Shown here: one piece after another, positions 9,182-13,110 of the stretch
How the letters are laid out: the number at the start of each line of letters is the position of its first letter
Numbering within the stretch: the first letter of the stretch is position 1
Virus record (IMG/VR): IMGVR_UViG_3300029309_000342
Coordinates: 1 to 24,177 of that record
Strand: one strand, 5' to 3'
Length of the DNA stretch: 24,177 nucleotides
DNA from: a virus
Translations under genes and position numbers: made by a program
The notes under the pieces: model-generated
Told to the model about the DNA's origin: nothing
What the model saw: only the letters and a program-made list of their open reading frames with translations
The model's database searches: none

Positions 9182-9313
9182 ATGTTTTGGCATAATAGAA
9201 TTATAGATTTTGTTGAGAGATGTACTTCAAGATTTAATAGTTATCTCTGGACAAAAAGATGGGGAGATAGATCTTTGTATCAATCAACCCAAAAAAAAAG
9301 ACACTTAGAGTAA
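9182..9313 (+). CDS. 43-aa basic protein, last gene of the rightward arm
   Basis: ATG 9182 lies four bases after the previous stop, with a weak GAAAG purine stretch before it. The product is basic and aromatic-rich (MFWHNRIIDFVERCTSR at the start, YLWTKRWGDRSLYQSTQ in the middle), a composition unlikely for a random frame in AT-rich DNA. The TAA stop (9311-9313) falls in the last stem base and loop of the first terminator hairpin, so the end of the gene and the convergent terminator share sequence. Function unknown. Confidence 0.6.
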   Translation: MFWHNRIIDFVERCTSRFNSYLWTKRWGDRSLYQSTQKKRHLE

Positions 9314-9329
9314 AACTCTAAATGTCTTT
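9291..9329 (-). terminator. Intrinsic terminator for the leftward (late) transcript
   Basis: A 15-bp inverted repeat pairs 9297-9311 with 9315-9329 across a 3-base loop, with one mismatched position. Read on the minus strand the stem is followed directly by a run of nine T (plus-strand A run 9291-9299). This is a good intrinsic terminator for leftward transcription, 54 bases after the last leftward stop codon. Read rightward it lacks a clean T tract. Confidence 0.85.
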
Positions 9330-9347
9330 GTTGTTGTTACCTGCGAT

Positions 9348-9380
9348 GGGGGGGTCTTGTGGCTCCCCCTTTTTATTTTA
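9348..9380 (+). terminator. Intrinsic terminator for the rightward (early/replication) transcript
   Basis: A G-rich stem 9348-9356 pairs with 9361-9369 as nine base pairs, two of them G-U type, closing a four-base TTGT loop. It is followed by TTTTTATTTTA. This is a canonical rightward terminator, 34 bases after the last rightward stop, and it ends just before the leftward gene stop codon at 9383. The two arms' transcripts should therefore overlap by roughly 80 bases at their 3' ends. Confidence 0.85.
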
Positions 9381-9382
9381 TA

Positions 9383-9616
9383 TTAACAGTTCCAAGCCCT
9401 TAATGCTTTATTAATTCTACTGTTAGGATCTCTTGCTGTTTTAGCTGATGTAAGTTTTTTCTTCATACCTTTCATTCGTGCACAGAAACTAGCTCTACGT
9501 TTGTTTCCAACTTTTTTACTAGGTCTTTTTAAATTAGCACCTGTCGTTCTTTTAAAATACTTACGACCTGCCTCATTCAGTCCACCTGATGGGTTCTGAT
9601 ATTTTTTTGCTACCAT
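9383..9616 (-). CDS. DUF6321-like basic protein, 77 aa
   Basis: The sequence contains NPSGGLNEAGRKYFKRTTGA, then RRASFCARMKGM and a C-terminal RINKALRAWNC. This agrees with the DUF6321 pattern as I recall it (GGL-AGR--F--T-GANLK, then a basic S-F--R stretch). It is strongly basic, small and soluble, and is the last gene of the leftward operon. It starts at a TAATG junction with the gene upstream. Members occur widely in phages and bacteria; the function is not established. A nucleic-acid-binding role fits the charge but is not shown. Confidence 0.8.
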   Translation of the reverse strand: MVAKKYQNPSGGLNEAGRKYFKRTTGANLKRPSKKVGNKRRASFCARMKGMKKKLTSAKTARDPNSRINKALRAWNC

Positions 9617-9750
9617 TATCTTTTCTTTGCTGTCATTGCTGCTCTTCTAAAGTTTGCAGCAGTAGGTGCACCTTTAGCACCTTTCTTTTTCATTTTGCCA
9701 CCACGCTTTCTTTTAGCATGTATGTTAGCATATAAACCCTTACCTGGCAT
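9616..9750 (-). CDS. 44-aa basic conserved phage microprotein
   Basis: Located between two TAATG junctions (start 9750, stop at 9616), so it is clearly part of the coupled series. The product begins MPGKGLYANIHAKRKRGG and ends FRRAAMTAKKR, with very high Lys/Arg/Ala/Gly content and almost no acidic residues. From memory, proteins with the same MPGKGLYANI opening are common in marine phages. Function unknown; packaging into virions or nucleic-acid binding is possible because of its charge. Confidence 0.75.
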   Translation of the reverse strand: MPGKGLYANIHAKRKRGGKMKKKGAKGAPTAANFRRAAMTAKKR

Positions 9751-9884
9751 TATGCTCTACCTTTTTTTTTATTTCTTAACATAGCAAAATCTCTTTTAGT
9801 AAGTTTACCATCTCTGTCCATATCTAATTTTTTTCTATTGCCTGTTACTTTTTTTTTATTCTTCATTTTTTTCATTCCGTACAT
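9750..9884 (-). CDS. 44-aa EF-hand microprotein
   Basis: A Lys-rich N terminus (MYGMKKMKNKKKVTGNRKK) is followed by a textbook single EF-hand calcium loop at residues 21-32: D-M-D-R-D-G-K-L-T-K-R-D, with acidic ligands at loop positions 1, 3, 5 and 12, Gly at 6, hydrophobic at 8 and Thr at 9. A short exiting helix (FAMLRNKKK) follows. It lies between TAATG junctions, with an AGGAGAT site inside the upstream gene. Calcium binding is an inference from the motif. With one loop it would need to dimerise or pair with another protein to make the usual two-loop unit. Confidence 0.75.
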   Translation of the reverse strand: MYGMKKMKNKKKVTGNRKKLDMDRDGKLTKRDFAMLRNKKKGRA

Positions 9885-10132
9885 TAACTATATCTCCTAT
9901 ATTTAGCTGTTTTTTTTGCAATCCCTCTCGGTTGCTTCACAAACTGTTTGCCCTTTTTTGTTCCTTGGCGTTTTGCTTTTGTCGTTGCTGCATACTCTGC
10001 AGATGATAGACTCTTGATAGCTTTCTCTGGCAAATATCTTTCCCCAGTCTCCGAAGATTTCTTGCCAGATTTCGTTCTCCATTTTTGCTTTCCCCATGCT
10101 TTTAAACTCCTTTGACGTTTTGCTAGTGCCAT
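9884..10132 (-). CDS. DUF5872 protein, 82 aa
   Basis: The body matches the DUF5872 pattern as I know it: SLKAWGKQKWRTKSGKKS, then a TGERYLPEKAIKSLSSAEYA block and KRQGTKKGKQFVKQP with a basic C-terminal tail. It is extremely basic and soluble. DUF5872 occurs in both bacteria and phages; its function is unknown to me. The start (10132) shares a base with the upstream stop, and the stop (9884) shares a base with the EF-hand gene start. An alternative reading in another frame at 9903-10097 is a shadow. Confidence 0.85.
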   Translation of the reverse strand: MALAKRQRSLKAWGKQKWRTKSGKKSSETGERYLPEKAIKSLSSAEYAATTKAKRQGTKKGKQFVKQPRGIAKKTAKYRRYS

Positions 10133-10425
10133 TATGTTTTTCTCCCCCTTCGTATAGCCTCTTTACCTTTTTTAAATATAGATGCTACCTGCGATTTACC
10201 CATGACTTTAGCTCTTTGTTCGCCAACAGTTAGGATTTGAATTTTCCTAGCAAATGGTTTAGAAATCTTTTTAACTTTTGCCACTGTTTTCCTCGCATCT
10301 GCTGTCGTTGCGAACTTGATTCCAACAGTGTCACGAGGGTTTTCGTCAGTGTAAAGCCTTCTACCATGTTTTTTTCCTGGGTGTTTTCCTGTGCCTTTAC
10401 TAGGCTCTTTTCTTTTTCTTGCCAT
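10132..10425 (-). CDS. 97-aa basic conserved marine-phage protein
   Basis: The sequence contains KGTGKHPGKKHGRRLYTDEN, then a mixed alpha/beta middle (TVGIKFATTADARKTVAKVK, then ISKPFARKIQILTVGEQRA) and a basic C-terminal tail (IFKKGKEAIRRGRKT). It resembles, from memory, a very conserved small protein of cyanophages and pelagiphages without known function. The centre looks like a real folded domain, unlike the simpler basic peptides around it. ATG 10425 lies 26 bases inside the upstream 43-aa gene, with AAGG before it. Confidence 0.7.
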   Translation of the reverse strand: MARKRKEPSKGTGKHPGKKHGRRLYTDENPRDTVGIKFATTADARKTVAKVKKISKPFARKIQILTVGEQRAKVMGKSQVASIFKKGKEAIRRGRKT

Positions 10426-10531
10426 TACCTTTTAAAGCACTTGCTAATAATTTGTGTTGGCCAGTGTGTGCCTTAACAGCACCCTTTAAACCCTTAATAA
10501 CTTTTTTTATTTTTGCTCGTGATTTTTTCAT
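10400..10531 (-). CDS. 43-aa lysine-rich microprotein
   Basis: ATG 10531 is in an ATGA overlap with the upstream 33-aa gene, and the frame ends at TAG 10400 inside the next gene. The product is MKKSRAKIKKVIKGLKGAV followed by an HTGQHKLLASALKG segment and a KKKKRA end. It is histone-tail-like in composition. Similar MKKSRAKIKKVI openings recur in marine phages in my recollection. Function unknown. Confidence 0.65.
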   Translation of the reverse strand: MKKSRAKIKKVIKGLKGAVKAHTGQHKLLASALKGNGKKKKRA

Positions 10532-10629
10532 CTTTTGTATTTATTCCTCCAATAGTTTTGTCTTTGTATTAATCGTATTTGATACTCTAGGTCAGATATA
10601 CCTAAAATTTTTTTAATAAAGTTCAACAT
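10528..10629 (-). CDS. 33-aa basic peptide
   Basis: Starts at a TAATG junction (10629) and ends at an ATGA junction (10528). The product is MLNFIKKILGISDLEYQIR followed by an Arg/Lys/Trp-rich end, forming a probable amphipathic helix. Small size limits confidence, but both ends fit the operon's stop/start grammar and an AGGAAT site for the next gene lies inside it. Confidence 0.5.
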   Translation of the reverse strand: MLNFIKKILGISDLEYQIRLIQRQNYWRNKYKR

Positions 10630-10808
10630 TATTTGTAACCCCCACCTGCAGCTTTGTATTTTTTAGCTAACATCTGGGCTTTTCTTGCTGACCATTGTCC
10701 AGGTTTTCCACCCTTTGACCCAGCCATGATAGAGTTAAACATTCTCTTCCTCATACCAGGTTTTGTATAGTTACCTGCTTTATTTACTGTCGACTTTTTC
10801 TTCGCCAT
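10629..10808 (-). CDS. 59-aa basic conserved phage protein
   Basis: ATG 10808 has an AAGGAG site upstream and overlaps the end of the 222-aa gene by 29 bases. The product is MAKKKSTVNKAGNYTKPGM, then RKRMFNSIMAGSKGGKPGQ and WSARKAQMLAKKYKAAGGGYK-type ending. It is strongly basic, Gly/Lys-rich and resembles a small protein repeatedly present in marine phages. It is the first of the eight-gene cluster that ends the late operon. Function unknown. Confidence 0.75.
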   Translation of the reverse strand: MAKKKSTVNKAGNYTKPGMRKRMFNSIMAGSKGGKPGQWSARKAQMLAKKYKAAGGGYK

Positions 10809-11448
10809 TTTTTATCTCCTTATAATCATAGTCATAACTGCCTTCTTCATTCTCATCAGTTATCCATTTAGATGTGTCTTCTACAGACCATATTCTAGTA
10901 TTAACTAATCTATGTATAAGAGGTTTGCTTGGATCAGCTGCCATAGATGGATCAAATATCCTTAGTCTATTATTAGGTTGTATAGCATAATTACCATCAT
11001 CTAATTCTATTACATGCCCACATTTATGTTGATCTGGTTTTTCTGCATAACCAAAATCTAATTCATTATAATCACCTGCACACCAGTCTATTGTAAATAA
11101 GTATGTGCCTTCTCTTTGTTTACGTCTTCTAGATGTATACATCATTTTACATCCCTGTAATTGATAAAATCTAGTAACACTTACATTGTAGCTAAATGAA
11201 TCCCATAACATTAATTCATTTAATGGTAATTCTTTTACTCCAGGTTTTTTACAAAATGCAGATACAGGTGCTCTCCACCAGATACCACCATCTGTCATCA
11301 TGTAATGAAACAATGGTACTTGTTTTGGTATAGATGTAAAACCAAATACAACACACTCAAAATATTTATCATGAGAATCTTTCTGATCTCTTAGATAATT
11401 ACCACGCACATAACATTCTATGGGTGGTATATTAGCATTTAAATACAT
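10780..11448 (-). CDS. 222-aa conserved marine-phage protein of unknown function
   Basis: A globular protein beginning MYLNANIPPIECYVRGNYLR with many aromatic residues and conserved-looking blocks (GFTSIPKQVPLFHYMMTDGG, LFTIDWCAGDYNELDFGYAE, IELDDGNYAIQPNNRLRIFD). I recognise it as a protein strongly conserved in cyanophages and pelagiphages and always annotated as hypothetical. There is no signal peptide or membrane segment. The 25-residue C-terminal tail is acidic and overlaps the next gene. It starts in a TAATG junction with the 107-aa membrane protein gene. Its persistence across marine phages suggests a core role. Confidence 0.8.
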   Translation of the reverse strand: MYLNANIPPIECYVRGNYLRDQKDSHDKYFECVVFGFTSIPKQVPLFHYMMTDGGIWWRAPVSAFCKKPGVKELPLNELMLWDSFSYNVSVTRFYQLQGCKMMYTSRRRKQREGTYLFTIDWCAGDYNELDFGYAEKPDQHKCGHVIELDDGNYAIQPNNRLRIFDPSMAADPSKPLIHRLVNTRIWSVEDTSKWITDENEEGSYDYDYKEIKNGEEKVDSK

Positions 11449-11771
11449 TAGTTTGCTAGTGGGTTAGAAGATTTAACTTTAATTTCTTCTATTTGTACTT
11501 TTAATAATTCTATTTCTTTCTCAAGTATTTTAACAGCTGAATCATCATGTGTATGATCAAAGTCGTGAGTATGTGCAGTGTCTGCATTCTCTAGTGCTGT
11601 AACTTTTTCTTCTAACACAGCTATTTCTGCAGAATAATCTGTAGATTTTTTAGACTCAAGTGCATTTAGCTTTGTAGTTATCTCACCATATTTTACAAAC
11701 CCACCACCTATTGCTGCTATAACTCCAAGTAATGCTGCTACACCTGCTAATTGATTTTTTATTTTATCCAT
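11448..11771 (-). CDS. 107-aa membrane-anchored coiled-coil protein with His/Asp cluster
   Basis: An N-terminal glycine-containing hydrophobic segment at residues 8-27 (AGVAALLGVIAAIGGGF) is followed by two coiled-coil helices. Between them is a compact His/Asp cluster, THDFDHTHDD, with H67, H69, H73 and H75 and acidic residues beside them, which looks capable of metal binding. ATG 11771 overlaps the secreted 448-aa gene by 8 bases. The layout (one span, then coiled coil) is like a spanin or holin-associated protein, but similar proteins in marine phages have no assigned role. Confidence 0.7.
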   Translation of the reverse strand: MDKIKNQLAGVAALLGVIAAIGGGFVKYGEITTKLNALESKKSTDYSAEIAVLEEKVTALENADTAHTHDFDHTHDDSAVKILEKEIELLKVQIEEIKVKSSNPLAN

Positions 11772-13110
11772 TTTTTAATTGCTCCAGTTCTATTAGTATT
11801 TGTTTTTTCTTTAAATTTATTTTATTTAGTTTTTCGTTTACGATAGCTATAGGATCTGTTGATGTATAATTAGCTAAAGTTTTTTCTTCATATAGCTGTC
11901 TTAAATCCTGTATCTCTACTTGATCTAAATAAATATCTTTACTTTTATAGAAGGGTACATCGTATAATTCAAGTGATACTTGGTTATTTACCATAGCATC
12001 TAATTTAATTATATTTTTTATTTGTAAATTTTTTGATATATCTTTTATATCTTTATCAATTTTATCCATAATTTTTACAAGATTATTTTTGATTGTTTCT
12101 TTCTGTTGTATAGTTTTTTGTTTTTTATTATTCTCATTCTTAATAGTGGCAGTCTTAGTAGTTTCGCTATTAGGTTTCTCTTCTTTAACTTCTTCTTTTT
12201 CACTTGGGGCCTCTGCTAATTTAGTAGGTGCTTCTTCTATTACTTCTTCCTCTGTAAACTCTTCTACTATTTCTTCCTCTACCATCTCCTCTTCTAGCAT
12301 TTCTTCTGGCATTTCTTCAACTATCATTGGAGTAGGTTCAAAAGTAACTTCTTCAAACTCCTCTACTGCTTCCATTTCTAAAGCAGGTTCTTCAAAAAAA
12401 GTTATTAACTCTTCAAATAACTCTTCAATCTCTACAAATTCTAATTCTTCAAATACTTCTTCAACACTTTCAAATATATCTTCTATTTCTTGTGCTATAG
12501 TTGGTGCTATGACTGTGTTATCATAAGTCATAGTAACAGATATATTATCTACATTTGGCCCACCTAAAGTTGCAGGTGCATTTGCATCTGTTGCAGATAT
12601 ATTTATATTACCTGTATATGATCCTGTTCCATTATAGATTAATCTATCTGTAAAATTAGCACCATTTATATCAGTTACATCTGTCCTAATAGTAGTATTA
12701 GATGCTAACGTATTACCATCTTCATCTTTAATTGTTAATACATTTGTAAATGTATCAGCATTACCTTGCCCACCCCAACACCCAGTGACGTTGCACTCGC
12801 CATTTTGTACTTCAATTGTTGAATCTAGTGTAATACCATTATCCAACATATTCTGTGTAATTGTGTCTGAACTCAAATCAAAGTTTTGATTAATAGACCC
12901 ACTATCTCCAAACTCTAAATCATAATTACTAGGTATATTGTTTAATCTACAACAATCATTTAATACCTGTACATCCCCTGATGTATTCCAACCATTAGCA
13001 TTACCAGTTTCAAAGTTACCATTAGTAACTAAATTATCTGTTGTTATCTCTTCTGCTAAAGTTGTAAGGGTTAATGTTATCAGCAAACTTATCAATAATA
13101 TAATACGCAT
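11764..13110 (-). CDS. 448-aa secreted protein: lectin-like domain, Glu-rich linker, Lys-rich coiled coil
   Basis: A Sec-type signal peptide (positive residue 2, hydrophobic core 3-18, likely cut after TLA at residue 19) is followed by a beta-rich domain (about 25-200). That domain contains VTNGNFETGNANGW and paired cysteines, typical of carbohydrate-binding-like beta-sandwiches. Residues 205-313 are almost pure Glu with Val, Phe and Met. The last 130 residues are Lys-rich helical. ATG 13110 has an AGGAA site 8 bases upstream. From memory similar proteins occur in other marine phages. It is probably exported during late infection, because a virion protein would not need a signal peptide. Its role (surface remodelling, superinfection exclusion, lysis control) is unknown. 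Confidence 0.8.
   Translation of the reverse strand: MRIILLISLLITLTLTTLAEEITTDNLVTNGNFETGNANGWNTSGDVQVLNDCCRLNNIPSNYDLEFGDSGSINQNFDLSSDTITQNMLDNGITLDSTIEVQNGECNVTGCWGGQGNADTFTNVLTIKDEDGNTLASNTTIRTDVTDINGANFTDRLIYNGTGSYTGNINISATDANAPATLGGPNVDNISVTMTYDNTVIAPTIAQEIEDIFESVEEVFEELEFVEIEELFEELITFFEEPALEMEAVEEFEEVTFEPTPMIVEEMPEEMLEEEMVEEEIVEEFTEEEVIEEAPTKLAEAPSEKEEVKEEKPNSETTKTATIKNENNKKQKTIQQKETIKNNLVKIMDKIDKDIKDISKNLQIKNIIKLDAMVNNQVSLELYDVPFYKSKDIYLDQVEIQDLRQLYEEKTLANYTSTDPIAIVNEKLNKINLKKKQILIELEQLKNG

Follow-up and report, generated by a model that had tools for sequence, protein, structure and literature searches.

Eight basic microproteins closing the late operon of an HMO-2011-type marine phage are candidate DNA-associated head peptides

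The internal proteins of phage T4 are basic, present in about 300 copies each, and made with a targeting propeptide of 10–19 residues that is cut at L/I-X-E (PMC9026906). They are ejected, and one of them, IPI, inhibits restriction of T4 DNA (PMC9026906). A member of the family DUF5872 has been reported in a Chrysochromulina virus (PMC12085832), while DUF6321 stands in Pfam without an assigned function. In this study we analysed eight small genes at positions 9383–10808 of a 24,177-base virus record (IMG/VR IMGVR_UViG_3300029309_000342; this whole stretch is called the window), which is probably a fragment of a viral genome. The window phage is of HMO-2011 type, a virus of the ocean's commonest bacteria. 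We propose with moderate confidence that the cluster encodes late DNA-binding peptides organising or accompanying the genome in the phage head. In the accessible parts of the open literature on DUF6321, DUF5872, cyanophage capsid targeting and internal head proteins, subscription papers and preprints being outside this scope, none draws this connection.

The cluster is filled by eight overlapping open reading frames (ORFs), all on the minus strand at the end of the late operon. From the upstream end, they encode a basic protein of 59 amino acids (aa) (NKAG59, 10629..10808; phrog_17747, E 8.7e-34), a mildly basic 33-aa protein with the conserved pattern FIKKILGI..LEY..R...YW..KY (m33, 10528..10629), a Lys-rich 43-aa protein (K43, 10400..10531), a basic 97-aa protein with a predicted disordered N-terminus and three helices (YTDE97, 10132..10425), a basic 82-aa protein (SLKAW82, 9884..10132; phrog_14910, E 1.3e-38), a Lys-rich 44-aa protein of EF-hand/dockerin type with one calcium loop (9750..9884), a basic 44-aa protein with the GLYANIHAKRKR motif (KGLY44, 9616..9750; phrog_16028, E 1.1e-15) and a 77-aa DUF6321 protein (PF19846) with a helical fold and a C-terminal RAWNC (9383..9616). 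These gene names and the module letters used below were coined in this analysis. The calculated isoelectric points are 10.4–12.0 and the Lys+Arg contents 24–41%, with net charges from +6 to +23 per protein and +133 summed over the eight, so that small, basic proteins of the late region, as in T4-type internal head proteins, are what the cluster encodes. The preliminary description of this DNA had called the set strongly basic, which is right for the set as a whole and too strong for m33 (+6). As the least basic member, with a conserved amphipathic-looking start (FIKKILGI), m33 may differ in role from its neighbours. By arithmetic with assumed copy numbers, about 300 copies of each protein would offset about 40,000 of the about 106,000 phosphates of a 53-kb genome.

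For three members, the 59-, 82- and 77-aa proteins, the cellular counterparts have the same core, often with a histone-H1-like tail attached. When bacterial and archaeal genomes were scanned for the 59-aa family and the best 80 of 408 confirmed loci were read, the 59- and 82-aa modules were in one ORF at 28 loci and in two ORFs at 48, and the 82-aa module was unseen at 4. Many of the two-ORF loci are probably viral contigs; the one-ORF forms occur in named isolates, for example of Fibrella, Hymenobacter, Myxococcus and Occallatibacter. By sequence comparison, the 59- and 82-aa proteins are the N- and C-terminal halves of one cellular DUF5872-like protein. A basic tail of at least 20 residues, rich in Lys, Ala, Arg, Pro, Ser and Thr, was found in 16 of the 28 one-ORF forms, versus 9/201 neighbouring ORFs in a similar test on fixed 50/60-residue ends. 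Lys/Ala-rich tails are typical of histone-H1-like DNA-binding proteins. DUF6321 was present in 17/80 genomes of the order of Occallatibacter, and all 18 whole-genome DUF6321 frames (these 17 and one Gemmataceae genome) carried a Lys/Ala-rich extension, in a test on stop-to-stop frames that counted at least 20 residues before or after the core and had no matched neighbour control; several of these extensions are only 18–19 residues when counted from the first Met, and one frame (L430) has two in-frame stops. At two loci (L401 and L403) the gene immediately preceding the fused 59+82 gene encodes DUF6321. The eight window proteins themselves show no Lys/Ala/Pro-rich tail on reading.

The preliminary description had matched two of the eight proteins to DUF5872 and DUF6321. 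The DUF6321 label stands: the 77-aa protein matches the family at full length (81 bits against a cut-off of 28.5, profile positions 2–72 of 72). A search for DUF5872 (PF19197) at E ≤ 1 gave no match in the window proteins tested and none in the whole window, and this label holds indirectly, in that joined 59+82-aa relatives score just under the family cut-off; five of nine joined-module proteins matched DUF5872 at 18.6–26.4 bits (cut-off 27.5), the longest match covering positions 2–109 of 116.

In four loci of SAR11 the two halves are fused in the opposite (82-59) order, without a tail. One of these genes (L395, 4740–5156), whose product was matched in 12/99 genomes of the family, 11 times as one full-length ORF and once in two pieces, stands amid genes for DUF1365, cyclopropane synthase, DUF3833, short-chain dehydrogenases and TspO, a neighbourhood that we take to be related to light or oxidative stress; a second locus (L412) has a similar neighbourhood by eye. 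On a 399-kb SAR11 contig (L362, 1–10174), phage-structural-looking genes, together with the 59/82-aa pair, abut genes that by eye resemble host genes of purine salvage, an arrangement like that at the border of an integrated phage.

Relatives of the DUF6321 protein have been linked to virions. ORF137 of S-CREM2 (108049–109521) was detected in CsCl-purified virions by 4 unique peptides at 4.1% coverage (PMC10665884), and in the S-CREM2 record the gene at 108049–109521 lies between the terminase genes and its product ends in DUF6321 (40.8 bits). The neighbouring ORF136, which was also detected in virions by 8 peptides (PMC10665884), has a leader-like start. ORF29 of S-SCSM1 (517 aa, with DUF6321) is labelled as a virion protein in its record, and since the accessible part of the S-SCSM1 paper gives 45 virion proteins by mass spectrometry, this label presumably reflects such detection. 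Further literature sources were PMC9602691, PMC9146016 and PMC3037559. Genes for such peptides are placed between TerS and TerL in S-SM2, S-CREM2 and S-SZBM1, and directly before TerL in MEP401. It is because of the tailed cellular cores, the virion relative, the proximity to terminase genes and the basic genes at the end of the late operon that we favour DNA-associated head peptides.

Placement beside the terminase genes would also suit peptides that stay out of the virion, either coating or condensing DNA inside the cell or assisting the terminase, as would the position of the cluster at the end of the late operon of the window. A 165-aa protein of S-SZBM1 (S-SZBM1_192), which has a leader and DUF6321, is absent from the 30-protein virion table of that phage in the accessible part of its source; this agrees with such intracellular packaging aids and is a point against a place in the head. 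Since the S-CREM2 protein was detected in purified virions, we consider packaging aids of this kind improbable, and head peptides are still preferred.

Some of the same modules are built into chains in T4-like cyanophages. In cyanomyoviruses DUF6321 often ends long proteins encoded near the terminase genes, and DUF6321, YTDE97 and KGLY44 modules are parts of long proteins there, as is probably the K43 module, judged by profile similarity. The 708-aa protein SSM2_109 of S-SM2, whose gene adjoins that of the gp17 terminase, has the YTDE97 module at its start and DUF6321 at its end. Among the 92 DUF6321 matches (the window copy being counted twice and some loci overlapping), 91 extend to the end of the ORF. 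Combinations within one ORF were YTDE97+DUF6321 (6), KGLY44+DUF6321 (3), K43+DUF6321 (3), K43+NKAG59 (5) and KGLY44+K43 (2). KGLY44 and DUF6321 are fused in L067, L084 and L085, and the PHROG families 11180 and 28131 imply likewise, for KGLY44 is the N-terminal part of phrog_11180 and phrog_28131 and their C-terminal part matches the DUF6321 ORF. The K43 module in the three fused ORFs ending in DUF6321 was found by the iterated profile only (single-sequence E 0.012, weak), and a direct link of NKAG59 to five fused ORFs was not significant. In addition, the multi-module protein of S-SM2 (L008, 5938–8064) contains a DUF192 domain (85.2 bits) and that of L073 a DUF5661 domain; the chains therefore hold folded domains besides basic peptides.

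DUF6321 was found in 525/50,697 phage records, mainly of cyanophages and some pelagiphages, with 475 of the 525 named Synechococcus, Prochlorococcus or Cyanophage, and a search of 72,556 plasmid records gave no match to it. In the pelagiphage Greip (MT375525.1, 30793–31005) the stretch matching DUF6321 is covered by a feature annotated as a RecA-like recombination protein, which is probably a misannotation or an overlap. An equivalence of SLKAW82 with the RDWF module of cyanomyoviruses had been expected and was dropped (hhalign probability 2%); hhalign of seven window families against seven cyanomyovirus modules gave no homology.

The borders of the chained modules are marked by glutamate. All 48 non-redundant fused ORFs (reduced from 51) have a Glu 2–5 residues ahead of the first Trp of the DUF6321 module, and the residue two before this Glu is L, I, V or M in 25/48, against 335/1559 for the other Glu of the same proteins. 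The junction Glu was present in 48/49 DUF6321 ORFs longer than 130 aa versus 4/40 shorter ones, a comparison that scored 89 of 171 DUF6321 hits and left out 82 without the W[TQ] core. Among the four short exceptions, one (L090) has a leader, one (L079) is the remnant of a fused ORF truncated by the contig end, and two (L043 and L174) seem to be artefacts of where the frame starts. For the other modules, a Glu within five residues upstream was found in 11/11 (J), 26/27 (H), 9/9 (D), 9/10 (B), 18/23 (E), 28/35 (F) and 15/22 (C) cases, in 43/47 for DUF6321 by profile start, and in 2/3 (A), 3/6 (K) and 0/1 (L), with a background of 0.31; these contexts come from related sequences and are hence non-independent, and the A, K and L sets are small. 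The motif [LIV]xE[AGS] was observed 91 times in 38 fused proteins versus 46.8 expected (z 6.6); ten control proteins from the same phages had it 10 times, versus 14.7 expected. Close to the start of the major capsid protein, P-TIM68, S-SZBM1 and S-SCSM1 each have an LxE with A as the next residue, presumed from sequence to be the cut site, and the junctions of the fused ORFs resemble sites of a prohead protease.

Of 649 module ORFs, 8 begin with a leader similar to the T4 capsid-targeting sequence, and in four ORFs of 39–51 aa (L009, L041, L089 and L097) a leader is joined to module J. The gp21-type protease family PF03420 was found in 5/5 records of Kyanoviridae (cyanomyoviruses) and in 0/10 others, namely HTVC033P, HMO-2011 and eight other records, in which PF04586 was the only other protease family searched; PF04586 was found in 0/15 phage records. 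Given fused chains and the protease in cyanomyoviruses, the separate genes of the window stand where a cuttable chain stands there.

All eight cluster proteins have homologues and a pN/pS ratio (non-synonymous to synonymous) below 1. Mean pN over mean pS was 0.23 for NKAG59, 0.29 for m33, 0.55 for K43, 0.17 for YTDE97, 0.19 for SLKAW82, 0.37 for the EF-hand ORF, 0.15 for KGLY44 and 0.20 for DUF6321, from sets of 5 to 12 related sequences, some near-identical (L020 and L021), with synonymous sites partly saturated; K43 thus shows the weakest signal of purifying selection. The nearest named relative is the Pelagibacter phage HTVC033P, an HMO-2011-type phage (PMC9038755), whose gp42–gp36 are syntenic with the cluster in the same order. 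DNA identity to the window block is 81.2% over 87% of the block, and among 187 matching phage records only HTVC033P covers at least 80% of it. The 33-aa gene was not found in HTVC033P, and the slot of the EF-hand ORF is taken there by a different basic ORF of 46 aa. Because all eight have homologues and low pN/pS and the order is kept in HTVC033P, the cluster is not a chance arrangement.

Co-occurrence was assessed in 292 contig groups, obtained from 330 loci of four scans and the named phages, each viral scan being read for the best 80 of 424–594 confirmed loci. Among the matches listed, the NKAG59 family was in 93/292 groups, and all 93 also carried SLKAW82 (107 groups). Since one scan was itself recruited by SLKAW82, the fair figure is that of the NKAG59 contigs recruited by another module only, 12/12 of which carry SLKAW82. 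In the named phages, all 17 NKAG59 records (HMO-2011 twice) fall within 20 SLKAW82 records. The m33 gene was in at least 12 contig groups, the window included, and K43 in at least 52. At least 10 groups, including the window, retain six to eight modules in the window order, while others have DUF6321 ahead of the 59/82 pair, or KGLY44 and DUF6321 swapped. The modules therefore form a recurrent set and not a fixed operon. Both purifying selection and co-occurrence, on which the idea of a unit had been staked, were borne out, with the same order fixed only among the nearest relatives.

Varied order, the gain and loss of members, the replaced EF-hand slot of HTVC033P and the lack of homology between members would fit unrelated small late genes gathered at the operon end and shuffled as cassettes. 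Such an absence of any single unit is very unlikely in our judgement, considering the recurrent linkage of modules in many contigs, their combinations within ORFs and the 12/12 contigs that join NKAG59 with SLKAW82. Conservation bears on another account as well. Anti-defence cargo is generally expected to change fast. If the peptides were carried in the head and acted in the new cell on the host nucleoid or on defence, as takeover cargo, the 59/82-aa modules might be nucleoid-protein mimics, and modules common to bacterial genomes, SAR11 included, are what would be expected of these; T4 internal proteins, which are ejected and of which IPI blocks restriction (PMC9026906), give a precedent. The modules are well conserved in phages of SAR11, SAR116, Roseobacter, Methylophilales and cyanobacteria, unlike fast-changing cargo, and we regard the takeover role as unlikely next to DNA-associated head peptides.

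The remaining family and structure searches were as follows. The loop of the 44-aa protein scored 25.9 bits as Dockerin_1 (cut-off 22.9, positions 21–55 of 57) and stayed below the cut-off as EF-hand, which corrects the earlier naming of an EF-hand peptide. A complete dockerin has two calcium loops; the 44-aa protein has a single one and is not a complete dockerin or EF-hand domain. The loop is retained in 9/10 sequences, the window included. The AlphaFold2 model of the DUF6321 protein has a confident helical core (mean predicted local distance difference test, pLDDT, 87.7) and gave no PDB match in a fold search; against BFVD its confident matches, where named, were mostly DUF6321 proteins. 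One BFVD match to a DUF6321-like fold (TMq 0.67, E 0.016) is A0A6J5N5R9, a predicted 679-aa phage protein annotated Ferritin/DPS and possibly a fusion of a DNA-protection protein with a DUF6321 module. The YTDE97 model has three helices after a disordered start (mean pLDDT 76.7) and matched only generic helical bundles at E 1.8 or worse. Neither predicted structure settles function. Searching PDB sequences with three alignments yielded no match or chance-level matches only, and NCBIfam had no name for any of the four window proteins tested.

A role in ribosome or host-RNA interference, which had been suggested earlier, would agree with the high Lys/Arg content, and the 97-aa family has a chance-level profile similarity to La-related protein 7 (E 0.041). 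We found nothing pointing to this role: the family searches, which for NCBIfam covered four of the window proteins, gave no ribosomal or RNA-binding family, and the relatives are tied to a virion and to H1-like tails. It is thus hardly probable. The other roles proposed for one functional unit, DNA condensation and packaged nucleoid-like proteins, are favoured by the virion and tailed cellular relatives.

Several observations weigh against DNA-associated head peptides. Searches of the accessible literature found no mass spectrometry, ribosome profiling or DNA-binding data on the window phage or on stand-alone members, and the 4 peptides (4.1% coverage) of S-CREM2 ORF137 may fall outside DUF6321. 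By reading, all eight window proteins lack a capsid-targeting leader, and leaders are rare overall, the 8/649 module ORFs comparing with a background of 97/19,188 ORFs under a slightly looser pattern. Enrichment of the looser motif [LI]xE is much the same in fused proteins (1.35) as in controls (1.29), and therefore it is the narrow [LIV]xE[AGS] form that carries the signal. Protease presence tracks phage type, so the contrast between chains and separate genes may be phylogenetic. Of 11 genomes with the 59/82-aa modules, 9 have no DUF6321, SAR11 included, and DUF6321 also occurs in 15 further catalogue loci outside the tail test, probably viral, one of which (L378, 98 aa) was read and is tail-less. 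Comparison of seven window families with each other by hhalign gave no homology, and the fold searches with the DUF6321 and YTDE97 models gave no confident match to a solved structure.

On balance, basic and mostly helical peptides from the end of the late operon would bind the phage genome and travel with it in the head, where they would neutralise, compact or protect the viral DNA, and perhaps enter the next cell along with it. T4-like cyanophages would make one multi-module protein, probably cut in the head by the gp21-type prohead protease, while the window phage, of HMO-2011 type and with relatives that lack PF03420, encodes the peptides separately, already 'pre-cut'. Chain cutting, DNA binding, virion presence in the window phage and the function itself are what we infer. 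More tentatively, and with less confidence than for the cluster alone, unrelated marine phage types may share a kit of interchangeable DNA-organising peptides, core modules of which also occur in bacterial proteins with H1-like tails, and phages and cells may thus exchange a viral nucleoid system in split, fused and permuted forms: internal head chains cut by protease in cyanomyoviruses, pre-cut microgenes in HMO-2011-type phages and the tail-less swapped fusion in SAR11. Should DUF6321 and its partners prove to organise DNA in the head, a function could be assigned to many marine phage genes now called 'hypothetical'. Proteomics could then test whether chain and pre-cut forms are equivalent, and phage heads would be linked to uncharacterised bacterial proteins with H1-like tails.

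As to the surroundings, replication-type genes occupy the plus strand of the window and late genes its minus strand; these blocks converge at facing terminator-like hairpins near 9297–9369. The eight ORFs were confirmed at the place and with the lengths described before, as was the closing terminator, a minus-strand hairpin (9297..9329) that faces a plus-strand hairpin at 9348–9369. Their coupled junctions were confirmed too: five are 1-nt overlaps (TAATG), one is a 4-nt overlap (ATGA), and the remaining one is a 26-nt overlap between K43 and the next ORF. The start of NKAG59 overlaps by 29 nt an upstream 222-aa gene (10780..11448, minus strand; phrog_3704), at whose equivalent place HTVC033P has gp43. 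Hairpin-type terminator sites numbered 3 in the region versus a shuffle mean of 1.2, and promoter-like matches were at chance level (9 versus a shuffle mean of 9.3). Further upstream, a 448-aa protein (11764–13110) that begins like a signal peptide and contains a long Glu-rich segment had no PHROG match at E 0.001; HTVC033P gp45, which is placed likewise, is called carbohydrate-binding.

Compared with known systems, the cluster proteins resemble T4 IPI–IPIII in being small, basic and of the late region, and some cyanomyovirus relatives have a leader and the same kind of glutamate-marked junctions. They differ from the T4 proteins in that those of the window are leaderless, that the protease family was found in none of the ten records of other phages, and that cyanomyoviruses string several modules in one protein; T4 is likened here by description and not by sequence comparison. 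SPN3US-type giant phages also have internal head proteins cut by a prohead protease, according to the accessible part of the source, but belong to another phage group and are likewise compared by description, not sequence. With respect to DUF5872 (PF19197), the 59- and 82-aa proteins match halves of cellular DUF5872-like proteins, whereas the scores of these relatives are all under the 27.5-bit cut-off and the window proteins are themselves unmatched and split over two genes. The cellular relatives of three window proteins are often tailed like bacterial histone-H1-like nucleoid proteins, and the phage proteins are tail-less. DUF6321 (PF19846) itself is a stand-alone core in the window, the C-terminal module of long proteins in cyanomyoviruses, and a tailed protein in the bacterial genomes read.

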